Positions 1 to 64,000 of a stretch of DNA of 64,000 nucleotides are shown here, piece by piece. Under the pieces are notes generated by a model. That model saw nothing but the letters and a program-made list of their open reading frames with translations, did not search any database and was not told the DNA's origin. The stretch is from Tubiluchus corallicola (taxonomy: Eukaryota; Priapulida; Priapulimorpha; Priapulimorphida; Tubiluchidae): positions 2,501 to 66,500 of the forward strand of contig JAQGDQ010001029.1 in assembly GCA_030141605.1 (NCBI GenBank), written 5' to 3'. The first letter of the stretch is position 1; the number at the start of each line of letters is the position of its first letter. Made by a program: the position numbers and the translations under genes.

Positions 1-977
1 AATTTTAATAAATAATAGATATGAATGTGGTAAATTCATAATTAAGCGACACTGTGTCTTTCACTGTATATTTTCACAAAAAGCGAAGATCCCTGGAAGT
101 GAAAAAAATAGTACAATCAAAATAAATATAGCAGAGACTGTATTATCAACATTCAACATAGTTGAAAGCATGTCCAACCAATCAGTCATCGCGTAACAAA
201 TCAACTTTTATAGCTAGAATTGCATAATAAAATTATACATTCTCACCAGGCATATGACAAATATTCCAGCAGCAATTATAGTAGTCTGCATGTAACTCTG
301 CCACATTTACTCGTATGAGAATGCAAGTACTGAGTGAATTTACAAGAGATTATAAGGATAAAAACAAAGTTGGCAAATTGTAACAGAGTGCTCTAACAAT
401 CTGCTCTAATTGTTAGGCAATGTACAAAATATTTTTAAAATCAGAAACAATACAAAATTTACATCAAAAGGCCTGAAAAATGAACCAAGCACAACTGTTC
501 ATGAGTCATACTGCCTAATTGCGTGTTACTTAAATTATTATGACTCTACTGACTATTCATTTGACCCTGCTGCATACGCAATGGTAACAGCCAACTAACT
601 AATAAAAGCAACAATGCAGCTGAAATAATTAAGTGCTTTTCAGTTTTCCTAGCGAGAAATCCCTGAAATTTAATTTGGGACTATTCGATTTTTTCAGGTT
701 TAGAGATTTTTATAAGCTACTCACTGGTTTCACATCGAAGTCATCTTTTATCCAAAGAACTCAGTTTTTCGTATTTTAACGACATTTGGACAAAATTTTG
801 GAGAATTATTAAAATGTATTTCAAACACGTATATATATCACTGCAAGTCTACGTTGAAAAACATGCGCAGCTTGGTCTAGTAGTTTTTGCTTCCCGCAAA
901 CGTACTTAAGCATTGAAGACAACAAAACCCTGAGTTCAAAGGTTAATTTTAACGTCGCGGAAACGGCTGACCTCCTC

Positions 978-3010: not shown

Positions 3011-3694
3011 TCATTTCTCAATGTGCACATTTTAAAATTGACAGTTAAAGGAACATATTATAAAGAATATGTCACTTACTCGCTACCATTTTGTCATGAT
3101 AGGGTTAACCGGCAATAAAAAATTGTTGGCTTATTGTCTCTTTTTAGGTAAGTTTTTAACAGCAAACTTACAATTTCTTTTCTTAGATTTCTACTAATTC
3201 AACAAAATGTTTATGGAGTTTAGTTATTCGCAAAAGCAAAAAGTTTTTCACAGTGTTAATTTATTTATTTTTAATGTTTAAATTTTTTTAAAGTATTATG
3301 GTAAATTTTACCAATAATATCTTATTTACTACAAAGGAGGAACTGTTACCATTTTTAAGCATCCGTCACCGTCATTGGTTTTACTAAATTTTACAGCTTA
3401 CAGCATGGATAATGCGTTTTTATGCTTCTAATCTTGTCATTGTTCTCTGATTGTTTTCAGGATTTTATTTTGGTTAAAAGTTTTTGAAACATTTCAATTG
3501 TTCACTTTTCCCTAGTAGTTAAGGCCCTGACCTTAGTCCGAGCTTGATGAAAACCCGATTTTAGATTTGACACCACGATTGCAAGATAGCAACAATTAAT
3601 GCTGTCATTTTCCAAAAATATGTGTTTCAAAAGGACCAATCAGGCTTGTAATTTCTTTGTAAGACTGATTTTTCGTGGCATTTATATTTTGCAG

Positions 3695-4276
3695 ATGACG
3701 TCTACTCGGGCCATTTTCACGATTTTGATTGGCACGTTGGTGGCGCAGACAGCATTTGCAAGATGGCAGAAAAAGAAACAATATAACAGGAAAGTTGACG
3801 ACACACACAATATACGTGATCGTAGTCTTGACTTCATTTACACTTTATTTAAACTTAATAATTGCTTCGACTTGCACATGAACGGCAGCAAACTAAACCA
3901 ACGGGGAAAAAACTGCGACACTTGCTTAGAAGGAAACAACGTTTTTTATTTTTACAAACCGGAAGCAGGCGAACTACTTTATACCGAGAATCGATATCAA
4001 GATTGCTGCGCCAACGACGATCATTACGAAGAGTGTACACGTGCCTTAGCAACAGACGCATTTGTAGGTCAGTGTTTTACTGGTTCAAACGGGAACAAAG
4101 CGTTGAATGAACGAGGTAACGACTGTAAACAATGCATAAAAGGTGAGACAGTTAACGAGCTTCGTGCACAAGGAGAAGAACAAGTTGATAGAGTTCTTAT
4201 TTACAAAGATTGCTGCAAGAGTGACGATCGTTACAGTTCTTGCAAAAATGTATTACAGCGCACAGTCACCAAATAA
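3695..4276 (+). CDS. Six-cysteine secreted protein 1 (two domains)
   Basis: I do not recognise a named family. The 193-aa product begins with a typical signal peptide (about residues 1-22, hydrophobic core IFTILIGTLVAQTAFA). Two tandem six-cysteine domains follow, with Cys at 57, 74, 77, 104, 105, 114 and at 127, 144, 147, 173, 174, 183. Both share the RG-x2-C-x2-C and C-C-x8-C motifs. I chose the ATG at 3695 because it abuts the splice acceptor ttttgcag, as in gene 2. The frame stays open to an ATG at 3599, but that would place the signal peptide internally. A polyA signal AATAAA lies near 4587. Six cysteines per domain suggest three disulfides, so an extracellular stable protein is inferred. 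Genes 2 and 3 downstream are paralogues. Confidence 0.75.
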   Translation: MTSTRAIFTILIGTLVAQTAFARWQKKKQYNRKVDDTHNIRDRSLDFIYTLFKLNNCFDLHMNGSKLNQRGKNCDTCLEGNNVFYFYKPEAGELLYTENRYQDCCANDDHYEECTRALATDAFVGQCFTGSNGNKALNERGNDCKQCIKGETVNELRAQGEEQVDRVLIYKDCCKSDDRYSSCKNVLQRTVTK

Positions 4277-8785: not shown

Positions 8786-9733
8786 ATGACGTCTGCATCA
8801 TCAGTGTACGGGAGTCTAATTGGACTGCTGATCATACAGACAACACTAGCAAGATCACAGCATAGGAGACATCATCCTAGACAGGCGCAGGTACAGCAAC
8901 AGGACCGGGTAACCGTACCTCTGATGCAGTCTCAAAAAGAGGGACAACAGTCGCAGAAAGAGGTAACCATATCCCCACAGCAACAGGAACGGGTAACCAT
9001 ACCTCTGATGCAGTCTCAAAAAGAGGGACAACAGTCGCAGAAAGAGGTAACCATATCGCAGTCTCAAAAAGAGGGACAACAGTCACAAAAAGAGGTAACC
9101 ATATCTCAGTCTCAAAAAGAGGGACAACAGTCGCAGAAAGAGGTAACCATATCCCCACAGCAACAGGAACGGGTAACCATACCCCTGATGCAGTCTGAAA
9201 AGGAGGGACAGCAGTCGCAGAAAGAGGTAACCATATCGCAGTCTCAAACAGAGGGACAACAGTCACAAAAAGAGGTAACCATATCTCAGTCTCAAAAAGA
9301 GGGACAACAGTCGCAGAAAGATGTATCCATATCGCAGTCGCAGAAAGAGGGACAACAGTCGCAGAAGGAGGAGCAACAGTTGCAGGAACAGGAACTCGAA
9401 CTTCGACCAGGCACAACAGACAAAGATCTTGTTAAGGTCCTTTTCGGTTACGTTTTCGATGACAAGTCAGGTGCAAAATGCTTCAAGGCAAAAGGAATGA
9501 CCATCATTGGGCTCAGCAAACGAGGAAAAAATTGTCGAACATGTATAGAAGGTAATAATGATGCTTATTTCTACGAAGCTGAGGCTGGTGCACCACCACC
9601 AGGCCTGGATGAGATTTTCACTGCATGTTGTATCAACTCCTCTTTCTACGGCGTGTGCAAAAAAGTAGTAAAAAACCAAGAAGACGAGGACGAACAAAGT
9701 CAGGAGGCGGAGGATCAGCAGATGGAAGATTAA
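8786..9733 (+). CDS. Six-cysteine secreted protein 2 with Q/K/E tandem repeats
   Basis: The product is 315 aa. It has a signal peptide (about residues 1-23), a low-complexity region (about 37-213) and one six-cysteine domain in the C-terminal third, with the same RG-x2-C-x2-C and C-C-x8-C spacing as genes 1 and 3. An acidic Q/E/D tail follows. The low-complexity region is built from 16-residue units of the type QSQKEGQQSQKEVTIS, with a variant unit containing PQQQERVTIPLM. The 48-bp DNA repeats are nearly identical, which suggests recent unit expansion. The ATG abuts the acceptor ttttcacag. The repeats add a long, charged, probably unstructured spacer missing from the paralogues. The function is unknown. 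Confidence 0.75.
   Translation: MTSASSVYGSLIGLLIIQTTLARSQHRRHHPRQAQVQQQDRVTVPLMQSQKEGQQSQKEVTISPQQQERVTIPLMQSQKEGQQSQKEVTISQSQKEGQQSQKEVTISQSQKEGQQSQKEVTISPQQQERVTIPLMQSEKEGQQSQKEVTISQSQTEGQQSQKEVTISQSQKEGQQSQKDVSISQSQKEGQQSQKEEQQLQEQELELRPGTTDKDLVKVLFGYVFDDKSGAKCFKAKGMTIIGLSKRGKNCRTCIEGNNDAYFYEAEAGAPPPGLDEIFTACCINSSFYGVCKKVVKNQEDEDEQSQEAEDQQMED
8890..9400 (+). repeat. 48-bp coding minisatellite
   Basis: Tandem units of about 48 bp (agggacaacagtcgcagaaa core) lie within six-Cys gene 2 and keep the reading frame. Two larger blocks (about 180 bp) are themselves duplicated, as shown by the two occurrences of the CCACAGCAACAGGAACGGGT segment. Confidence 0.9.
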
Positions 9734-13020: not shown

Positions 13021-13780
13021 ATGCTAAAAATGACAGGGAAGCGACATCAGTAAAAACTGATGTTCACAAAGGCAAATGTGATGGACAAAGGTGTAAAAAT
13101 CAGTCAAAAAACCTAAGAGAAACAGGTCAAGGATAACAAGATAATAGATAACGATGGGTTGAAGTCAAAAATTCCCAAATTAAAAGACAAAGGTGTTAAA
13201 GACAAGCGGTAAAACGACACAGGTGAATAAGACTTGTAAAACTGAAAAAGCAATAATAAAAAAGCAAAGAAAAAAGTCGGTAAGTAAAAAACCAAATGAA
13301 GTAGAATGGGGTTCGATTCATAGAAACTACGCGGTCCGTATCCTTTGACCAGCAACTCTTGATAAAAGTTCTTGGCTTTTTTCCTCTTCGCAAATCTTTC
13401 GAGGACAAACCAAACGTGGCGTAAATCAGCCAACATAATTTTTCGAAAGATAACTAAAACCGAGGAGATAGAGGGACAAAATGAACACGTTTGTAGGGTC
13501 AAAGGTTACAGTGAAATACGTTTAACTGTGTCAATTTGTGTTCGAAATGCTTCAAACATTGATGTCGATGTTCATACGCTCTTTTGTGTTTTCTCTCGTC
13601 TTGATATGGAAACTGCTACCCTCACAGAAGTTGTTTCGTTTATTTGTGGCACGTAAGAAATGGTTAATAATGCAAGGCCAAACAGTGACTACTACACGGT
13701 CTATCAAAATAGACAACAAAGTTATAAAATACAGTGCAGTAGATTACTCCAGTACAATGCACTTTATTTTTCTATAGGTG

Positions 13781-14140
13781 ATGCCAGGCGCCACGTTTGA
13801 GGTGCTTATAGGTCTTCTGATCATTCATGGGATACTCCCAGCGTCGGAACCAAAAGTAGAGACAGGATCTCCTAACGAGAATCCCGGAATGGACTCCCTT
13901 TTTTCCTACTTTGTCGACGAAAATGAAGGTGGAAAGTGTTTCAAGCCGAGGACAGTGAGCGTATGGATGACCAACCGAGGGAAGGATTGTCGAAAGTGCG
14001 TGCAAGGTCCCAACGTGCGGTTTCTTCTAGGAGCAGAGGCGGCAGAAGAATCAATCGACAGGGGCGCGACGTTCAAGAAGTGTTGCGCTAATAACGAGTA
14101 TTACAGAACTTGCAAAATGTTATTGAAAATAAGCAAATGA
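13781..14140 (+). CDS. Six-cysteine secreted protein 3 (single domain)
   Basis: The product is 119 aa. It has a signal peptide (about residues 1-22, core VLIGLLIIHGILPAS) and one six-cysteine domain in the order C-x16-C-x2-C-x27-C-C-x8-C, containing the motifs RGKDCRKCV and KKCCANN. The ATG lies 3 nt after the acceptor tttctatag (exon from 13778). Reading from the GTG at 13778 adds only one residue and is not needed. This is the simplest member of the tandem family and has neither the second domain of gene 1 nor the repeats of gene 2. The function is unknown, and extracellular action is inferred from the signal peptide and cysteines. Confidence 0.75.
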   Translation: MPGATFEVLIGLLIIHGILPASEPKVETGSPNENPGMDSLFSYFVDENEGGKCFKPRTVSVWMTNRGKDCRKCVQGPNVRFLLGAEAAEESIDRGATFKKCCANNEYYRTCKMLLKISK

Positions 14141-44644: not shown

Positions 44645-53027
<8,383 letters not shown>

Positions 53028-53564: not shown

Positions 53565-54478
53565 CAGCACATTTAACGTAACATAATGTGGCAGATTGTT
53601 TCTTGACATCAAAAGGTTTTGTGTTTCAAAATATTTTTTATATCCTATGGTAAATGTGAACGCCAAACTCAGATATAATGTTTAGAAAGATTTACATCAG
53701 AAATAATTTGAAATATACAACAGCAATGCCAGGCTGCAACAAGCAATACAAAACTATAAAAGTAGATGTGCACAACACAGCAATCTTTCCAGTACATCAA
53801 GTGCTGCCATCTATAAAGTGAAAAACTTTGTATGCGTGTCAGACTATCACCACATCTTCAATTTATTGTACAAAAACCCTGGCAGCCACGTGTTACTCTT
53901 CAAAAACAAACTTTTTCACAGTTGCAGTAATTGAAGATGATTGTGAAAAGGTCAAAGGTTAAATGTCTTTTCCAGTCTCAACGTGTAAGTTTTAGATAAT
54001 CTCACACTTATATGGCCGACCTGATTGAAGTGAGTCATCTGTTGGATTCATATTTCTAGCCATAGGCTGTAATAGCTCGATGATCCAACCTGCAAATTTT
54101 ACAAATGCATAATGTTCCTAGAAATAAATGGCGGTAGTAGGATAGATGTTACACCTCTGGCCGATTTCCCGGGGGGGGTGGGGATTTCCCCGGGGGGGTG
54201 GGGAAAAACACCCCTAAAAAAGTGCGAAAATCCGGGAAAACCCCTAAAAAAGTGTGAAAACCCGTGTGAAAGTGCGCACGTGACCGAAATCGACGAAAAA
54301 GCGCGAAAAACAAAGAAAAACGAAGAAAAGGCGTGTGAAACGAGGTAAAAATTTTCCATTTTTTCCCTCCCGCATGGCTTCATTTGGATCGAATGACCTT
54401 GAACTCTAGGTCACGTGACCAAAGTTCATTGACCCCTGGCCCCTGGATGGCTTCTTTTTTTGACGCCCCATTTTAAAC

Positions 54479-54571
54479 CGCGCGAAAGCGCGCGAAAGCG
54501 TGCGAAAGTGTGTGAAAGCGCGTGAAAGCGCGTGAAAGTGCGCGAAAGCGTGTGAAAGTGTGTGAAACGAG
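54479..54571. repeat. 10-bp tandem array (GCGCGAAAGC type)
   Basis: About nine degenerate decamers with period 10 and a fixed GAAAG core. Period 10 puts successive units on the same helix face, which would suit protein binding, but that is an inference. Confidence 0.85.
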
Positions 54572-54887
54572 GTAAAAAGCGCCTCAAACGAAGAAAAAGG
54601 GAGAAGTGGAGTTCCCGCCGAGGACTAATTAGTGCTAATTGGCGCTAATTGGCGCTAATTGGGGAGCCCCTGCCACCCCTCCGCCGCGTGCAAACGTCCG
54701 TCCCGGGGGTCGGGGACACCCCCCTGCAACCCACCCCTCCGTCGCATGGAATCGTCCACTGCAGGCAATGAGGGAAATCTTTTTCCCGCCACTCGCGCAG
54801 TGCCGGCCCTTTTCCGCGACCACTTCTCTCTCTCGGGTGCCCTCCCTTTTCCGCGACCACTTCTCTCGCGGGTTTAGATGTGTGTGT

Positions 54888-55035
54888 GTGTGGAGATTTA
54901 TTTCAAATGCCAAAGTTCGATAAATGCATTTTCACAAATCTTTTTTATTGATGGATTACAGGTGTGGAGATTTATTTGAAACGCCAAATTTCGATAAATG
55001 CATTTTCACAAATCTTTTTTTATTGATGGATTACA
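54888..55035. repeat. 74-bp direct duplication with polyA-signal-like sites
   Basis: Two near-identical units contain gtgtggagatttattt and gataaatgcattttcacaaa. On the minus strand each carries AATAAA (for example plus-strand tttatt at 55019-55024), which could end the minus-strand transcripts. Confidence 0.75.
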
Positions 55036-55172
55036 AAAAATTTTTTTTACATTTTTTATGCAAAATACATACGTGCTAAAACTAGATTATTATTATTATT
55101 ATGGTGACATGATAGTTCTACATTTTACGTTTTTTTCGCAAATTACACAAATTACGCAAAATTACAGTAAAA

Positions 55173-55775
55173 CTACACTAATGACGACGAGCGAGTACAT
55201 GGATTGTCGTCGTCGATGTGATACAGACAAACGTTATTGTTGTTAAAAACGAATTCGTTAAATTTGCGGAAAACGCGAGAGAAATCCTCGACCTTTGTCC
55301 CGCCCATCATTATTATGCTTCCGGTGTGAAAAATGTTCAGAGTAATTTGCTCGCATTTGCAAGTTAGTTTGGGAAATAGTTCCACTTCGTAAAACACTTC
55401 TCTAAAAGAATGCGTCGAAGGACGAACGAGTTCTTCGTACAGTGCACCCAGTTTCAATCTGCAGTGAATTTTGGCTCTGGCGGTGATGGTGCGAATTGCG
55501 ATCCCGTCGGCGGGCGTCAGTCCGAGACCTTTCGAGAGTTCTTCGATCGCATTGCGTAGTGCTTTTTCCTCCGAAAAACCGTTGGCCACCACGGAGCCGG
55601 AGGCAAAAATCATCAGCGTCCTGCCCAGTCGCTTTAGCAGAACCATTTGCGGTTTCCTTTCGTAGCGTCTTCCGCCCGTTCTCCGCCGGAGTTCGTTCAG
55701 ATCGAAGCGCTGCGAGAACGAAGCAGTGGCGACGATGTTGACCGTTTGGACTGACACGTTAGAACGTAGTTGGCA
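55173..55775 (-). CDS. TATA-box-binding protein (TBP)-fold protein
   Basis: This frame encodes both halves of a TBP saddle. Repeat 1 has VNIVATASFSQRFDL and LMIFASGSVVANG. Repeat 2 has ELFPKL and NIFHTGSIIMMGGTKV, matching the ELFPGL and LIFxSGKVVxTGAK signatures of eukaryotic TBP. Three of the four DNA-intercalating Phe positions are kept, and the first is replaced. The frame stays open upstream to 56168, but that part is a shadow of the overlapping gene, and no ATG exists at the domain start. It is therefore made by frameshifting, by splicing, or from a broken fusion with the 55697-56209 frame (relation -1). Role inferred: promoter recognition for the element's own genes. Confidence 0.75.
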   Translation of the reverse strand, partial: CQLRSNVSVQTVNIVATASFSQRFDLNELRRRTGGRRYERKPQMVLLKRLGRTLMIFASGSVVANGFSEEKALRNAIEELSKGLGLTPADGIAIRTITARAKIHCRLKLGALYEELVRPSTHSFREVFYEVELFPKLTCKCEQITLNIFHTGSIIMMGGTKVEDFSRVFRKFNEFVFNNNNVCLYHIDDDNPCTRSSSLV

Positions 55776-56209
55776 ATCGTTTCGGACGCCCGAACCGCTC
55801 TGCCTCGCCCGTTGCTCTGCCAACGTATGGCGGGCGGCGGGTGCTCGCTTTCCAAATCTTCTACGCGTATGACCACGCGATTTTTGGGGAGATGTTTTTT
55901 GACGAAATCGTACATCTCTGCTCCCTTGACGTAGGTGATCCTGCCTCTGGTGGTCTGTCGTAGAATGTTTTCCAATTCTGCATACTCGATCATTCCCTCC
56001 TCCCACGAGATGCCGTGTATGTGTCTGATTAGGTAGTTGTAGGTGGATCGCTTGTGCTGGGGAACGCGATTCCAGGGGTGGGGCGGTTTGAAGGTGTAGT
56101 TGTGATATATGCCGGTCTCTATTTCGCGAATTACCAAATTTTTGACCAGGTATTCTTCTTTTCCGCACTGGAAGGCATCTATGGTGAGAACTATGCTCGA
56201 TTCAGACAT
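55697..56209 (-). CDS. Uncharacterised Polinton protein, possibly RNase H/DEDD-like
   Basis: 170 codons on the minus strand. The ATG overlaps the stop of the upstream small ORF by 8 nt (ATGTCTGA). Features are IVLTIDAFQ, NYTFKPPHPW, HIHGISWEEG and GRITYVKGAEMYDFV. From memory this pattern resembles a protein widespread in invertebrate mobile elements that may derive from a DEDD-type exonuclease, but I cannot verify the family. The last about 18 residues look like a shadow of the TBP repeat in the neighbouring frame, so the real protein either ends near 55760 or continues into the TBP frame. An acceptor-like tcacag directly precedes the ATG. Confidence 0.5.
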   Translation of the reverse strand: MSESSIVLTIDAFQCGKEEYLVKNLVIREIETGIYHNYTFKPPHPWNRVPQHKRSTYNYLIRHIHGISWEEGMIEYAELENILRQTTRGRITYVKGAEMYDFVKKHLPKNRVVIRVEDLESEHPPPAIRWQSNGRGRAVRASETIANYVLTCQSKRSTSSPLLRSRSASI

Positions 56210-56432
56210 CTGTGACGATGGGGGGTCCTTCTACGCCGTCGGCAACGAGTTTTCCTTCGATGACGATTTGCTTGTGATTGTTCACAAATTCCAGAGACTT
56301 GATTTTTTCGAAGGTGTATTTTTTTATGACCTTGTTGGGGGCACTCTTGCGTGCGTTGGCGCGCTTGCCGCCCCGCGTCCCCGCTTGTTGTTGTTGCTTG
56401 CGAGGAACGGTGGTTAGAGGTTGTTTGAAATC
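56202..56432 (-). CDS. Small basic protein or terminal exon, uncharacterised
   Basis: The minus-strand frame from 56432 starts right after a strong splice acceptor (cttcttcttctcttgcag). It encodes about 76 residues: a basic Q/R/K stretch and then KKYTFEKIKSLEFVNN and QIVIEGKLVAD. It is in the same frame as the PC4-like ORF upstream, separated from it only by one TAG and the acceptor tract. It may therefore be the last exon of an alternatively spliced PC4-like transcript, or a separate gene with an unlocated first exon. I do not recognise it. Confidence 0.4.
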   Translation of the reverse strand, partial: DFKQPLTTVPRKQQQQAGTRGGKRANARKSAPNKVIKKYTFEKIKSLEFVNNHKQIVIEGKLVADGVEGPPIVTDV

Positions 56433-56486: not shown

Positions 56487-57704
56487 CTAGGCATTTTTGA
56501 TGAGCCATTCTTTCAGATTTCTAGGTTTTTTGGGGGCAGTGGGGGTGAGCACCATCGGCGGCGATGGAGGGGGCGTCGCGGAAATTACGAGTTTGTCTTC
56601 TTCTTTATCATCATCTTTCTCCTCTTCCTCCTCCTCCTCTCGAAAGATGTCCATTCGTGTCCCTCTCTCGCGTCTGCTTTTACACGGAGGGGCGGAGGTG
56701 CCGACGTCGACGACATTGCCGGCAGACTTCTTTCCGTCCAGTTTGTCCAGTTCCTCGCGTACCCGTCTTCTCGTATCTGCTCCTTTCAATATTCTGCGTC
56801 CCATTCTACCGATGATGACGCACTGTCCATTTAGCAGACTTCCATCCCTAATGGACACTCCCTCGATGCAGAGGAAACCTTGCCAAACTGTCATTCTACG
56901 ACGCGGCGACAATTGACATTCGTAGTATTCGTCGTCGTCCTCTATTTTGTCTATCTCCCCCTGTAGTTTTTCGTATTCTTCCAGATGGAGGTTGATGCCG
57001 GGTTTGGTCGGAACGAGCGTGGCGACGCCGTCGCTGTCCTCGTATTTCCTCTTCACTTTTTCGACTGCCCGTCTGAGACCTATGCTGGGATGCGTTGCCC
57101 ATTTGCTGATCAACACGTAGGTCTGCCCACACAGAAAGATGGCACCCGGATGTCGTTGACGTTGATACTTTGCCCTCGTCCAGTAGTGTGACATTTTCAC
57201 GGCTATGATCATCCTATCGATTAATTCCGATTCCAGCAGTGCCTGTACGGCCTCCTGACTCAACTCGAAATTTTGCTCGGGAAAGATGAAGAGCGGTCTA
57301 GAGTTTGCTATCATGAAAGACGTTCTGGCAGACAGTTGTATTTCAAAATCCGTATAAGATATCTCCTCGTTCAAGGCAGTCAGTATTTCTTCTCGTTTAC
57401 GTACGAGTTTGCCATACTCCATCACCGTCAAAGACGCGTGCTTCCCCCTAGTGAGTTTTTCGGTAGCGGGATCGTAGTTAGATCGTCGCCGAAAGTGAAC
57501 CTACGAATAAAAGGTCAAAAATTTTTTTAACACGCTCCTGCCCCCTGATGCTAAATAAAACAGGAAAAAAACAACGTTTCGGTATTCGAAATGCTAGAAA
57601 AATAATAATGAACATTTACTCACCTGATACACCTCGTCTAAGGATGAAAGCGATGTTGACAAATCGTGTGTCAGCGGATACACCAAGGCATCATTCTCCA
57701 TCAT
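56487..57704 (-). CDS. Protein with two PC4-like modules, spliced
   Basis: Exon 1 is 57624-57704 (ATG at 57704, 27 codons) and exon 2 is 56487-57500. The 123-bp intron has donor GTGAGT and acceptor tttattcgtag, phase 0. The product is 364 aa. Two regions (about residues 26-72 and 155-217) resemble the C-terminal half of the PC4/Sub1 fold: LTRGKHASLTVMEYGKL and PTKPGINLHLEEYEKL recall the GxKGISLxxEQWxxL signature. PC4 proteins bind single-stranded DNA and act as RNA polymerase II coactivators. A long acidic run (about 316-331) and a Pro-rich tail follow. A role in replication or transcription is inferred. Confidence 0.5.
57501..57623 (-). other. Spliceosomal intron inside Polinton gene
   Basis: GT-AG, 123 bp, more AT-rich than its surroundings, with an in-frame stop right at the acceptor, so read-through is impossible. 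Joining the flanks preserves the frame and extends the PC4-like module. Confidence 0.6.
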
Positions 57705-58075
57705 TAACATATAGCGATGTTTTTTCGTCGTCTGCGGATGTATGTGCTATCGCTGTGTCGCTCGAGACACTTGTGTCATCCCCCCGTCAAAACACCCCAT
57801 TATATAGCCGCTCTCTTCCGGTTGACGTCACCCAACGGTCGTTTGCCGTTAACAATAGCTCAAGCGTGAATGACGCAGCGTCTGTTCACTCTACCGTTTT
57901 CCCGCCAAACCGTCACGATGCGTCACACTACACGGCATCTATTGTGAAAAAAACACGCTGTTTGAACACGTTCGAGTGGGCTAACCGTTTTTTTTCGTAT
58001 GCATTGCGGTATTTTTATTCTTATTTTGATACAAAATTTATAAAGGAAGGTAGATTAATTTATTTGGTAATTACG
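57705..58075. promoter_or_regulatory. Divergent promoter region of the Polinton
   Basis: It separates the minus-strand block from the plus-strand block. A tatataa box faces left at 57800-57806, about 100 bp before the minus-strand ATG. A tttataaa box faces right at 58037-58044, about 32 bp before the ATPase ATG. The open frame across it (from 57548) is a chance extension of the ATPase ORF. Confidence 0.45.
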
Positions 58076-58711
58076 ATGGATCGAATTTATGATGCGAGAT
58101 TGAAATTTGGCAGCACCATGTTGGTGGCCGGACCCACTCGCGCCGGGAAAACCACTTTTGTAAAAAATTTACTCCTTCATCGGAACGTGTTGTTCGATGC
58201 TAAACCGGACAGGGTGTTGTGGATTTCGCAAACACCCCCTCCACTAGCCTCCTCTCGCGAAGAATTACAAGAAGTGGAGTACAGCGAGGACATAAATGTC
58301 GGAATACGTGCGGGAGATCTGGTGGTGGTAGACGACATGATGACGGAACTAGCCACCTCCAAACGACTGACTGACATGTTCACAAAGCTAGCACACCACA
58401 AACCGTGTTTCGTGGTTTTCATCACGCAAAATCTTTTTCAACAGAGCAAAGAATCGAGAACGCGCAGTCTAAACACCCACTACTTGGTGTTATTCAAAAA
58501 TCCGCGCGACAAGATGCAGGTGGAAGTGTTGGGTAGACAGATGTATCCGGGTAAAACGAAATCTTTTAGGGAGGCTTTCGAGCGCGCCACCGCAGCACCC
58601 TTTTCTTACGTGCTATTCGATTTGCGTCAGGAAACCGACGATGCCATTCGCATGAGAAGTAACATATTTCCTCACGAAGTACCACAATTGGTTTTTCTTC
58701 CTCAAAAATGA
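58076..58711 (+). CDS. FtsK/HerA-type DNA-packaging ATPase
   Basis: The product is 211 aa. Walker A is GPTRAGKTT at residues 19-27 and Walker B DLVVVDD at 81-87. An FITQNLF sensor-like segment follows, and LGRQMYPGK fits the A32-like genome-packaging ATPases of Polintons. It would pump element DNA into preformed capsids. I chose the ATG at 58076 because homologous proteins start about 15-20 residues before Walker A. The frame is open from 57548, but that extension is low in family character and crosses the divergent promoter. Confidence 0.88.
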   Translation: MDRIYDARLKFGSTMLVAGPTRAGKTTFVKNLLLHRNVLFDAKPDRVLWISQTPPPLASSREELQEVEYSEDINVGIRAGDLVVVDDMMTELATSKRLTDMFTKLAHHKPCFVVFITQNLFQQSKESRTRSLNTHYLVLFKNPRDKMQVEVLGRQMYPGKTKSFREAFERATAAPFSYVLFDLRQETDDAIRMRSNIFPHEVPQLVFLPQK

Positions 58712-58771
58712 GATAAGCAAAATGGTGCGCGTTGCATGCGACATAGAATTATTAACGACAACCGCAAAAAA

Positions 58772-59149
58772 ATGTCTCAAGCGCGCATTAGACGACACAG
58801 ACCTTTTCTCAAGCAACTCGCTCGTGCCAAACCGCGCGATAGGAGGGAGATGTTAAAGTGGGCCGATGCCGATGCGATTAATTTTTTGGCAGAATGCGCT
58901 CTCAACATACTACGCGGTAATGTGAAGTTGAAAACCAAACAGATAAAGGTATTGAGGGGACATCGCAATGTGCTGAGAAAATTGGCACGCGCCGGTTCCA
59001 CGTTGAAGGCCAGAAGACGTGCGCTAGTGCAAAAAGGTGGTATATTTCCAATCATACCCCTCTTGGCGGGCATATTTGGCGCCACTTCGGCTGCTGCTAG
59101 CGTAGCCAGAACGGTGAAGACATTCCGCGATAAGAAGAAAAAGAAATAA
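58772..59149 (+). CDS. Small basic virion-type protein with hydrophobic C-terminal segment
   Basis: The product is 125 aa, starting MSQARIRRHRPFLKQL (an ATG 12 codons upstream at 58736 is possible). The N-terminal part is rich in Arg/Lys. A GGIFPIIPLLAGIFGAT hydrophobic segment and a lysine tail follow. Similar short proteins next to the ATPase are a common component of Polintons, but their function is not established. A virion core or membrane-active protein is plausible. Confidence 0.6.
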   Translation: MSQARIRRHRPFLKQLARAKPRDRREMLKWADADAINFLAECALNILRGNVKLKTKQIKVLRGHRNVLRKLARAGSTLKARRRALVQKGGIFPIIPLLAGIFGATSAAASVARTVKTFRDKKKKK

Positions 59150-59150
59150 A

Positions 59151-59948
59151 ATGTATTCTCAGATGGTTTTACTACCGCTGGCAGAGTATAACAGGTTAAA
59201 ACATACGCGCCTCGTTCTAGACACGCCCGTCGAGCAGAAAACTGTAGAAATTCAACAGAAAATGGCGGAATTGGCAGCTCGAGGATTGCCACCCGATGTG
59301 GAAAATAAGATGAGAAGCGAATTGATGCAGGAGATCAAAGATTTGAAAAAACCCTCCTCCACGGGCGAAGATGACGATGGAACCCGACTGAAAGACACTC
59401 AAATAATCGAGGCATTACCCACCAAGTACAAGAGTAGGGGACAAAAAATGCTCTCCTTTTTGAAGGCCCATCGAACGCGTTGGGATGAAATGGGGCGTTT
59501 CGTGCACGAGGGACGCGCAATGAGTGGCACGCACCTGGTGGACTTGATAAATTTTGCTACAACTAGCGAGAAGATGACTCCCCCTCGCGGTTGGTCCGAC
59601 TTTTATCGTCATCTCAAAGAAATAAGTGTGCCCATGACTCTATTGGGTAAAACGGCTAAGACAGAACTCGAGAAGGGTCAACAGCAACAACAGCAGCGCG
59701 AAAGGTTGGGACTGACGACACCCCCATCCTCTCTAGCGCATCGACGCGTGGTGGCCGATGACGAAGCGAGGACAGCGACACCGACACCACCACCACCACC
59801 AGCCCCTCTACCTTCTAATAAACGAACCACGCGAAAACGTGGACCTCAACAACAACAACAACAGCAACAACAGCATCCTCGTCGCCGACGTCGACGACAA
59901 TCCTCACCCATAGTTAGAGAATGGGTGAGACTGGAGACAGAAGATTAG
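59151..59948 (+). CDS. Uncharacterised Polinton protein, Q/P-rich
   Basis: 265 aa from 59151. The ATG at 59163 (MVLLPLAEYNRL) is an alternative start. A mostly helical N-terminal half contains IIEALPTKYKSRGQKML and SGTHLVDLINF. The C-terminal third is low-complexity, with polyQ, polyP and a basic RRRRRR patch. It overlaps the integrase start by 28 nt. I recall proteins of this shape in many invertebrate Polintons, without a known function. Confidence 0.6.
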   Translation: MYSQMVLLPLAEYNRLKHTRLVLDTPVEQKTVEIQQKMAELAARGLPPDVENKMRSELMQEIKDLKKPSSTGEDDDGTRLKDTQIIEALPTKYKSRGQKMLSFLKAHRTRWDEMGRFVHEGRAMSGTHLVDLINFATTSEKMTPPRGWSDFYRHLKEISVPMTLLGKTAKTELEKGQQQQQQRERLGLTTPPSSLAHRRVVADDEARTATPTPPPPPAPLPSNKRTTRKRGPQQQQQQQQQHPRRRRRRQSSPIVREWVRLETED

Positions 59949-61015
59949 CCGAAATCTACTACGATTTGCGTCATCCTGCCGGTTATGCTAGCGCACGTGC
60001 ATTGAAACGCGCCTCTGGCGACACGATGCGTCGCGTGCGCGAATGGTTGAGTGCACAATCCGCCTACACCCTCCACAGGGGTGCCAGACGTAGTAGATAT
60101 GACACTCGCCCGACTTTGACGCGCGGTATCGATTATCAATGGCAAGCCGATTTGGTAATTATGGACGCGCTATCCAAATATAACGATGGCTACAAATACA
60201 TGTTAACCGTGGTGGATTGTTTTAGTCGTTATGCCTGGGCGAGAGCTTTGAAGAGTAAAGGTGGACGCGAAACTGCCGAGGCTCTACGCTCCATATTCGA
60301 AGAGGAGGGGCGCGCGCCCCTCAAATTACACACGGACAAGGGTAAAGAATTTCAAAATAGACATGTACAAAAATTGTTGAAAGACTATGGCATATATTTT
60401 TTCACCACGGAAAGTGTCTACAAGGCGGCCCTGGTGGAACGTTTTAACAGAACTTTAAAATCGAGATGCTACAAAGTTTTCACCCATCGCAACACCCTGA
60501 GATGGATAGATTTTCTCCAAGATCTGGTGTACGGATACAATGGTGCCACACATCGCACCATAGGAATGGCACCGCGCGAGGTGAATGCACGAAACGAGAT
60601 GCTTTTGTGGAGAAAATTATATGCCAAAGGAAGGAGGCGAAGAAAGAAAGATTTAAGAACACCTTCGAAATTAGTGGTGGGGGATTTGGTGCGTCTTTCC
60701 AAAGTCAAGGGACGTTTCGAAAAGTCTTACTTTCCCAACTGGACGGAAGAACTGTTCACGGTTAGTGCGGTGTCCGAAGGTGACGATTTCGCCACTTGGC
60801 CGCCCGCTTACCGCATATCCGATCACACCGGCGAAGAAGTGCGCGGTATATTTTATCGTGAAGAATTACAGAAAGTGATCAAGACGGACGACGTTTATCG
60901 CGTGGAAAAAGTACTCAAAACCAAAGGTAGAGGAAGACATAAGCGTTTCTTTGTAAAATGGTTGGGTTATCCCACAGAGTTTGCCAGCTGGATAACTGCA
61001 GAAGATTTTGTGTAG
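59921..61015 (+). CDS. DDE integrase with C-terminal chromodomain
   Basis: 364 aa of retroviral-type integrase that inserts the element DNA. The catalytic triad is D77 (QADLVIMD), D139 (LHTDKGKEF) and E173 (ALVERFNRTL), with about 33 residues between the second Asp and the Glu. The YGYNGATHRTIGMAP segment is the usual Polinton and Ty3-type motif. The end (about 325-362) is a chromodomain, YRVEKVL with FVKWLGYP and SWI, which may direct insertion to modified histones. It overlaps the preceding gene by 28 nt and is followed closely by the penton gene. All key residues are intact. Confidence 0.93.
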   Translation: MGETGDRRLAEIYYDLRHPAGYASARALKRASGDTMRRVREWLSAQSAYTLHRGARRSRYDTRPTLTRGIDYQWQADLVIMDALSKYNDGYKYMLTVVDCFSRYAWARALKSKGGRETAEALRSIFEEEGRAPLKLHTDKGKEFQNRHVQKLLKDYGIYFFTTESVYKAALVERFNRTLKSRCYKVFTHRNTLRWIDFLQDLVYGYNGATHRTIGMAPREVNARNEMLLWRKLYAKGRRRRKKDLRTPSKLVVGDLVRLSKVKGRFEKSYFPNWTEELFTVSAVSEGDDFATWPPAYRISDHTGEEVRGIFYREELQKVIKTDDVYRVEKVLKTKGRGRHKRFFVKWLGYPTEFASWITAEDFV

Positions 61016-61022
61016 AAAAAAC

Positions 61023-61805
61023 ATGATACCGGGTAGTTTTTCCGTGTTATTGCCCTCTAATGCCTCTCCCAAAGTGTATCCGGAGAACAGGCCGGGCGCC
61101 TTTCGCGTACAACTGCTCGATCCGCTAGAGCTGAAGGGAAACTGGGAAGTGGGTCTGACAGAAATAGTCTATCCGCGCTCATTCTACAATTACGAGGACA
61201 ACGAGTCGGTGGCCTTTATGACCCACGAGCGTGCCGTCAAGCTACCAGTGCTAACCGAATTTGCCGCACACTCCAAAAGGTTTAAACACATAGAGCTACC
61301 AAATGGACATTATAGCGATGCAAAAGAGCTGATGCACTACATAAATCAACAACTTCCCAAAAAGTTTTTCAACGTCACCTTTCACCCCATATCTAGACAC
61401 TCCCACTGGGCGGTTAAGGGAGAACTTTCCACTCTGGTCTTACGTAAACCGGTCACCGACATGATGGGTTTTTGGAACTTACCTTCGGCGATACTCACCA
61501 TAGGTGAACACGAATCCCCACACCCCTGCAAAGTGGATAGAGGACAACAGACGTTATACATCTATCTAGATTGCATCGAGCACTCCGTCGTGGGTCACAC
61601 TTCTGTACCTCTCTTGCGTGCAATAACCATTGCGCGACAGCATGGCGACACTGTCACTCACGAATTTCAGCGCATCTACTACCGCAAAGTTAACAAGAGT
61701 CAGATAAAAAGTTTGGAGGTGTATGTTTGTGACGACACTGGTAAAAAAGTGAACTTTCATTGGGGCCACATGATTTTGAATCTACACTTTAGACCATCAT
61801 TGTAA
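61023..61805 (+). CDS. Minor capsid (penton-like) protein
   Basis: 260 aa starting MIPGSFSVLLPSNAS. The in-frame extension to 61008 has no ATG and overlaps the integrase end. The N-terminal pattern (PSNAS-x3-YPENR, WEVGLTEIVYP) is characteristic of Polinton minor capsid proteins predicted to form a single jelly roll at capsid vertices. It starts 8 nt after the integrase stop, so both are probably on one transcript. Confidence 0.82.
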   Translation: MIPGSFSVLLPSNASPKVYPENRPGAFRVQLLDPLELKGNWEVGLTEIVYPRSFYNYEDNESVAFMTHERAVKLPVLTEFAAHSKRFKHIELPNGHYSDAKELMHYINQQLPKKFFNVTFHPISRHSHWAVKGELSTLVLRKPVTDMMGFWNLPSAILTIGEHESPHPCKVDRGQQTLYIYLDCIEHSVVGHTSVPLLRAITIARQHGDTVTHEFQRIYYRKVNKSQIKSLEVYVCDDTGKKVNFHWGHMILNLHFRPSL

Positions 61806-61878: not shown

Positions 61879-62271
61879 ATGGTGGCCAACAGCGATCCCT
61901 ATTACAGCTATTATAGCAAACCTCAGATCGGGGGTGTGCTACCCGTATATGCCGGTGCAGGCTTACAGTCTGGCAGTGGCTTGTTTAGCCTTATAGCTCG
62001 CGTTGCCATACCGCTAATACGAAAAATTGCCAGTGTGGCTAAACCTGCGGGACGGCTAGCAATGGGTGCCGCTAAAAATATAGCCAAGTCGACTGCTAAG
62101 AGAGCAGCCGGCGGTTTAAAAGATGCTCTAGCGCAAGAGATAAGCAAAACCGTGTTGAGTGCAAAAAGACGTAAAGCAAAACCCGCTCAGCGCCGACGAC
62201 GTCAGACTGGTACTGGTAGAAGAACGAGAACAAAGGCAAAAAGAAGAACAAAGCGCGATATTTTTTCCTGA
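61879..62271 (+). CDS. pVI/pX-like basic capsid-associated protein
   Basis: 130 aa. The N-terminal motif is YYSYYSKPQIGGVLPVYAG with a nearby LQSGSGLFS, then an amphipathic or hydrophobic region (ARVAIPLIRKIASVAKPAG, AMGAAKN) and a strongly basic tail. The YY-x-Q-GG and Q-x-G-x-G patterns are usual in Polinton proteins compared with adenovirus pVI and pX, which lie inside the capsid and help membrane disruption or DNA packing. The assignment is by pattern and position. Confidence 0.65.
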   Translation: MVANSDPYYSYYSKPQIGGVLPVYAGAGLQSGSGLFSLIARVAIPLIRKIASVAKPAGRLAMGAAKNIAKSTAKRAAGGLKDALAQEISKTVLSAKRRKAKPAQRRRRQTGTGRRTRTKAKRRTKRDIFS

Positions 62272-62320: not shown

Positions 62321-63625
62321 ATGGAAACACTGGCGGCTAAAAGTGAATTGGATTTGTTCACAGAAATGCCCACTCAGGTGGCCATTTCCGAAGGACAATA
62401 CGTGGATTTTCATCCCATAAACACCTACACGGAGAATGTGACTAGTCCCATCGAGTTTCACATAATTGGTAGTTCTGATGAATACTTAGATTGCGACGAT
62501 GTGCATCTAGTTTTAGATGTGCGCATGTTAACCGCAGCAGGTCAACCCATTAGAGTGGGTGCAGGGGTAGAAGATCCCCTTCCACATGTGGCACCAGTCA
62601 ATTTGCCCGCCACTTCCATGTTTTCGGATTGCGAAGTCATTTTGGGGAATACCCAAATACAGGGAGGCTCGCACGACTATGCCTATAGAGCTTACCTGCA
62701 AACCTTATTGGAGTACGAACCTGACACAAAAGATACACAATTGATCATAGCAGGATGGCAACCTGACCCCAGTAACAATCGAATCGATCAACCGGATCAA
62801 AACAATTCCATACAAGATAGAGCGCGCCCGTTGCGCGATGGCGCAACGCATCAATACGTCACTAAACTGTTTGTAGATTTCTTTAGACAACCGCGTTTTT
62901 TGTTGCCGGGCGTGGACTTGCGCATAAGGTTGATTAGACAGCGTGCAGACTGGTACATGATGAGCGCCTATCCGGATCGCGAAGTCTATTTGCACGTACA
63001 AAGAGCCGTCTTGTATGCACGACGCGTGCGCGTGATGCCAAGCGTGCTTAAAGCACACCTTGATGGTCTGAGTCGCTATAATGCCATCTACCCTTACAAT
63101 AAAGTAGAAATGACCAGTTTCACCATTGGACAGGGAGCACAAAGCATCGTGAAAGAGGATCTGTTCTCGGGTCGCGTACCAAAACTTTGCTTATTCGGAC
63201 TCGTGAGAAATGACGCTTATAACGGTTCGCGAGCACTTAGTCCATACAACTTTCAACATTTCAACATCAATCACGTCACCATGTACGTGGGCTCGGAAGA
63301 AATGCCACATCGCACCTTTCACCCGAATTTCCCGAGTGGAATCGTAGGACGCGAGTTTGTTGCTCTTTATCAGGCCTTTAATCTGTTTGGTAAAGATAAA
63401 GGAATCATCACACCTACAGAATTTAAACGGGGTACGACGCTCTTTGGATTTAACCTATCTCCAGATCAAAGCCTGGTTGGACATCGCCAAGGTGATAAAG
63501 GCGGTCAAGTACGTATCGAATTGAAATTTGCGCAAGCATTACCACACACCGTAAATGTGGTGGTCATGGCAGTATTTGATGCCAAAATCGAGATAACGAA
63601 ATTACTTGACGTCATAACACTATAA
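62321..63625 (+). CDS. Major capsid protein (double jelly roll)
   Basis: 434 aa starting METLAAKSELDLF. An in-frame extension upstream to 62159 is a shadow of the preceding gene. Typical features of the Polinton hexon-type protein are the N-terminal SELDLFTEMPTQ, IEFHIIGSSDEYLD, PVNLPATSMFSDCEV, and LLPGVDLRIRLIR, ending in NVVVMAVFDAKIEI. It should trimerise into capsomers of an icosahedral shell. It is intact. The stop overlaps the next start (TAATG), so it is probably translated from the same unit as the protease. Confidence 0.92.
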   Translation: METLAAKSELDLFTEMPTQVAISEGQYVDFHPINTYTENVTSPIEFHIIGSSDEYLDCDDVHLVLDVRMLTAAGQPIRVGAGVEDPLPHVAPVNLPATSMFSDCEVILGNTQIQGGSHDYAYRAYLQTLLEYEPDTKDTQLIIAGWQPDPSNNRIDQPDQNNSIQDRARPLRDGATHQYVTKLFVDFFRQPRFLLPGVDLRIRLIRQRADWYMMSAYPDREVYLHVQRAVLYARRVRVMPSVLKAHLDGLSRYNAIYPYNKVEMTSFTIGQGAQSIVKEDLFSGRVPKLCLFGLVRNDAYNGSRALSPYNFQHFNINHVTMYVGSEEMPHRTFHPNFPSGIVGREFVALYQAFNLFGKDKGIITPTEFKRGTTLFGFNLSPDQSLVGHRQGDKGGQVRIELKFAQALPHTVNVVVMAVFDAKIEITKLLDVITL

Positions 63626-64000
63626 TGTTAACGTTAACAGTACTCGTGTCGACGACGGCATCGGCAATAGCTGCAGCAGCGACACCGTTTTTATCTATGG
63701 TTAGTTCTTCAAGGACGATGACAGGAATGAACACCCTTCAATTGGAAGACTTCATGCAAAAACGCGCCCCTCCAGCAGCGAAACATCAATTTCGAGGGGT
63801 TTATTCGTCTTCTGAATTACTGGAGAGTGTCACAGTGAATGAACTCCCTGCTAGCTATATTGTCAACACTCAACCCAGCAATTTACCGGGCGAACACTGG
63901 GTGGCGCTCTATTTAGAGACCTCTGGTCGTGGAGAGTTATTCGATTCCTACGGATTGGCACCCACCTATAGAATTAGGAAATTTTTAAATAAAAATTGTA
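63625..64000 (+). CDS. Adenain-like cysteine protease (partial, runs off window)
   Basis: It is open from the ATG at 63625, which overlaps the capsid stop, to the window edge (125 codons). An alternative start is the Met of MNTLQLEDFM at residue 35, where the family homology begins. Motifs are GEHWVALYL with the catalytic His (residue 91) and LFDSYG with Asp (107). The catalytic Cys lies beyond the edge. Such proteases process capsid precursor proteins during maturation. Confidence 0.85.
   Translation, partial: MLTLTVLVSTTASAIAAAATPFLSMVSSSRTMTGMNTLQLEDFMQKRAPPAAKHQFRGVYSSSELLESVTVNELPASYIVNTQPSNLPGEHWVALYLETSGRGELFDSYGLAPTYRIRKFLNKNC

Follow-up and report, generated by a model that had tools for sequence, protein, structure and literature searches.

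A Polinton in the genome of the priapulid Tubiluchus corallicola carries a gene for a TATA-binding protein (TBP), and a second Polinton (L001), only distantly related to it, carries one as well; according to our analysis a Polinton-borne TBP is not a one-off. Judging from sequence and from a predicted structure, we propose, with a probability of about 0.6, that this protein binds promoters of the element itself and would bring host TFIIB and RNA polymerase II to them. For the L001 protein we likewise predict that it would guide host RNA polymerase II to the genes of its element.

The TBP frame and its fold

The frame occupies 55173..55775 of the window (the whole stretch of 64,000 nucleotides that was analysed) on the minus strand, with the TBP fold proper at about 55221-55757 and a TAG stop at 55175-55173; the plus strand of the same interval is interrupted by stops. 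The original prediction had read both TBP repeats here and had proposed a profile search and a structure prediction, and both agreed with it: the Pfam TBP family (PF00352) matches in two stretches, which are the two repeats (E=8.8e-23, score 80.4 against a cut-off of 22.9 bits), and the predicted fold is the TBP saddle. A comparison with solved structures gave 35 distinct sequences at E<=1, with TBP or TFIID names on nearly all of them. The motifs that had been named, ELFPKL, IFASG and IFHTG, are all found, and the count of three retained intercalating phenylalanines out of four was correct (human F214, F288 and F305 are kept, F197 is lost). Of the two minor-groove asparagines, which like these phenylalanines have known roles in TBP, repeat 1 retains its own (human N167), and repeat 2 has threonine in place of N257. 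Local identity to human TBP is 28%, human and Arabidopsis TBP being 84% identical.

The open minus-strand frame that contains the TBP runs from a TGA at 56204-56202 to the TAG at 55175-55173, and base shuffling of its 194-codon TBP stretch (55757-55176) gave a stop-free sequence in 0 of 5000 shuffles. No in-frame ATG precedes repeat 1 in this frame (56204-55173); there is a GTG at 55757, and the earliest in-frame ATG is at 55646, where a start would remove the first strand and helix of the fold. Upstream, within the same minus-strand gene block, lies a strong 3' splice-like site at 56432 with a polypyrimidine tract and CAG, and the splice donors around the frame, scored with a weight matrix, are weak ones only. 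Splicing of the TBP frame is possible, and because an in-frame ATG is missing before repeat 1 and the donors are weak, the window copy may not make TBP. We analysed the frame as it stands.

The Polinton around the gene

On the minus strand the TBP frame overlaps, out of phase, the 3' end of ORF B (55697..56209, 170 aa, no Pfam or PHROG match), whose ATG is in turn overlapped by the stop of the ORF behind the splice-like acceptor (56202..56432); the acceptor may mean that Polinton genes here are spliced. Then comes ORF A (56487..57431, 314 aa, with sub-threshold Pfam matches only and no PHROG). On the plus strand there are a probable packaging ATPase (57548..58711), with a P-loop, GPTRAGKT, recognised by eye and P-loop Pfam matches below threshold (best E=0.0074); a small basic ORF (58736..59149, 137 aa); an ORF of 265 aa (59151..59948); an integrase with a chromodomain (59921..61015; Pfam rve E=1.8e-17, Chromo E=8.4e-06), 35% identical to the L001 integrase (E=2.65e-62); a possible minor capsid protein (61023..61805), named from its position alone and matching its positional counterpart in L001 with E=3.4e-5 over 45 aa; a basic ORF of 130 aa (61879..62271); the major capsid protein (62321..63625); and the start of an adenovirus-type protease (63625..64000), cut by the window end, which matches Peptidase_C5 below the cut-off (E=0.025) and its L001 counterpart with 39% identity over 62 aa (E=7e-8). 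The capsid protein has the double jelly-roll fold; its alignment holds 41 of 44 relatives, P0031 (long), P0043 (partial) and P0044 (by choice) being left out. Like the TBP frame, the remaining genes of the element are open. Past the window lies a piece with what we take to be PolB motifs, and it gave no Pfam match and no significant alignment to the L001 PolB.

The contig stops inside the element, 2701 bases beyond the window, and as it does not reach the right terminal repeat, the element boundary was inferred from base composition: a G+C step near 54.1 kb, together with GC-rich repeats and a 59-nt direct repeat, would put the left end within 54130..55172. A boundary drawn in this way would leave some room for the TBP being a host exon or paralogue, lying outside the element or recently copied into it, which we nevertheless regard as very improbable, as the gene lies in the minus-strand block of the element, where it overlaps ORF B, has the G+C of the element, and has its sister, P0001, in another source. 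The placement of the gene inside a Polinton, as originally predicted, held, with the integrase, the capsid protein and other Polinton genes beside it. A captured host TBP exon, which the prediction had raised against itself, is contradicted by the low identity to human TBP.

In the host part of the window three plus-strand ORFs (3599-4276, 8786-9733 and 13778-14140) each begin, as judged by eye, with a signal-like stretch that is followed by a common cysteine motif; they have no Pfam match and appear to be a tandem gene family for secreted proteins. At 51736-52119 there is a tandem array with an 8-base unit, for which 37 overlapping copies of the reference stretch are listed.

Relatives and the second Polinton

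Among about 5.8 billion proteins the window TBP has a single relative at E<=0.001, P0001, 58% identical over 71% of the query, and the DNA-facing and stirrup motifs are the same in both, which suggests, as far as sequences can tell, that the protein is under selection. With a two-row profile and a limit of E<=10, P0002 came in as well (E=9.3e-6, 30% over 53%), with YEVELFP and IFHTG common to it and the window TBP; this protein search finds only sequences that have short words in common with the query. No relative was confirmed in viral_contigs with the window TBP, the capsid protein, ORF B, the integrase, P0002, A1, A2 or the capsid profile A3 as queries, and in genome_contigs query A1 gave 230 pattern matches and 0 relatives. 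In the phage collection the integrase query was without any match, and the TBP query met one haloarchaeal virus, weakly, at E=8; this is HRTV-9 (MZ334505.1 31385-31849), where the gene is annotated as a TATA-box-binding protein.

L001 (CALIZB010000033.1 1-8883) was recovered from genome_contigs through the capsid profile A3 (13 pattern matches, of which it is the one relative) and not through its TBP. This contig of 8.9 kb is assigned to a Bacteroidia MAG and is probably eukaryotic DNA that was misbinned. Its genes include those for an integrase and a capsid protein, a protease-like ORF, a type-B DNA polymerase split over two ORFs (a DNA_pol_B_2 match), and a TBP with its own ATG (E=1.5e-27). 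Only 52 bases separate the end of the TBP ORF from the integrase ATG, a gap that would be too short to hold an element end. Beside the TBP gene lies a small C2H2 zinc-finger ORF (573-842, minus strand), perhaps a second DNA-binding protein of the element, or host sequence. Both of the Polintons readable here thus encode a TBP. The original prediction had proposed to look in other Polintons for the same gene at the same place: in both elements the array integrase - capsid - protease - PolB has the TBP on its integrase side, but the orientation and neighbours of the gene differ.

In a tree of 8 rows the window TBP groups with P0001 (98/97) and P0002 joins them weakly (85/78), and the L001 TBP, 33% identical to human TBP, falls among the eukaryotic TBPs (97/93). 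A single clade of all four proteins is marginally rejected (p=0.047, in the same 8-row tree, with long branches for P0002 and L001), and on these sequences two separate acquisitions are likely.

The relatives bear also on whether the window TBP could be a relic, once working and now startless and unmade, in an element that has come to do without it. The missing ATG before repeat 1 and the out-of-phase overlap with ORF B would agree with such a history, and P0001 begins at a Met that matches the internal Met of the window TBP, so that the upstream break could be old. We consider a relic unlikely, though, taking in account the 194 stop-free codons and strong motifs in an element whose other genes are open too, the core motifs intact in P0001 at 58% identity, and the TBP of L001 with an ATG of its own.

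Proposed role and comparison with known systems

The E-x-E-L-F stirrup, a TFIIB contact in cellular TBP, is conserved in the window protein, and acidic residues at human positions 284/286, and likewise Leu287-Phe288, are kept in all four proteins (window, P0001, P0002 and L001). According to excerpts of PMC7221094, the 284/286 pair contacts TFIIB, conservation of its first position is about 40% across viral TBPs, and almost all viruses with a TBP encode a TFIIB-like protein of their own. No member of the TFIIB family is listed for 23 element stretches (12 from the window, 2 from L004 and 9 from L001), both elements being incomplete. We suggest that the Polinton TBP would bind and bend DNA at the element promoters, with a preference for these over others, and that its acidic stirrup pair would hand the promoter over to host TFIIB and then to RNA polymerase II.

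The same fold might instead bend DNA for replication or packaging, unconnected with transcription; TBP-like folds are present in other DNA-binding proteins, and RdgC is among the low-ranking matches. We give this little credence, as the match is to TBP proper across both repeats, and as four proteins out of four keep the TFIIB pair, residues that take no part in binding DNA.

Of the five positions of the helix-2 basic patch, the window TBP has two basic residues in one alignment and none when read by hand from another; P0001 and P0002 have 0/5, and L001 and Sulfolobus TBP have 4/5. To our knowledge, archaea do not have TFIIA, Mot1, NC2 or TAF1. It is this helix-2 surface that those regulators contact (in part from excerpts of PMC7221094), and its degradation may leave the Polinton TBP under weak control by them in the host; the argument is weak because it depends on the alignment, fails for L001, and meets an archaeal TBP that keeps 4/5.

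A retained TFIIB contact beside a degraded regulator surface would be also expected from a protein that sequesters TFIIB or host promoters and damps host transcription instead of serving the element. An element promoter motif that is not obvious would suit it as well: no TATA box stands out (TATAWAW occurs twice, each time on the minus strand), and before 11 candidate starts the best 6-mer occurs in 5/11, which is equalled in 10.5% of shuffles, longer words being no better. The same want of a motif counts against a TBP that serves the element, and so do the lost repeat-2 asparagine and the one lost phenylalanine. No observation points directly to an action against the host, however, and known viral TBPs serve viral promoters (excerpts of PMC7221094 and PMC12529657); we find it about as improbable as the role in replication or packaging.

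Coming back to a TBP that serves the element's own promoters, we may tentatively go one step further and suggest, at slightly less than even odds, that Polintons repeatedly acquire a TBP and use it privately to recognise their own promoters while relying on host TFIIB and RNA polymerase II, so that their genes could be switched on together, free of the controls that normally act on host TBP. If this is true, the swap of a single factor would be a minimal takeover of host transcription initiation by a compact Polinton, and it would give a handle on gene control in Polintons, which can be silent as transposons and act as viruses. Most known virus-borne TBPs either occur in viruses that also bring TFIIB or an RNA polymerase, or are herpesvirus mimics that depend on partner proteins.

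With cellular TBP, the TFIID subunit (PF00352), the window protein shares the two-repeat saddle, the E-x-E-L-F stirrup and three of the four intercalating phenylalanines, and it differs in its local identity of about 28%, a shortened first stirrup, the loss of F197 and N257, and in being encoded by a Polinton. In the viral structure library the named matches are headed by giant-virus proteins, and a TBP fold carried by a virus is what the window element has in common with giant viruses and mirusviruses, the latter encoding TBP according to excerpts of PMC10132985. Those viruses have large genomes, many with a TFIIB-like protein of their own (PMC7221094, in excerpt), whereas here we deal with a compact element in which no TFIIB is seen and the TFIIB contact pair is kept. 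Sporadic TATA-binding proteins are described, in excerpts of PMC10675990, for algal elements of putative mirusvirus origin, and not for the Polinton-like viruses of that paper.

The integrase and the double jelly-roll capsid protein are shared with animal Polintons (Mavericks, adintoviruses), as the probable ATPase and protease and the PolB-like piece would be; no report of a TBP in a Polinton, Maverick or adintovirus was found in the literature searched, which lacks most subscription journals. KSHV ORF24 and its herpesvirus kin are, as excerpts of PMC12529657 describe them, similar in that a TBP-like domain of the virus works with the RNA polymerase II of the host; ORF24 is without the acidic TFIIB residues and depends on further domains and partners, whereas the window protein is a core-only TBP that has the acidic pair.
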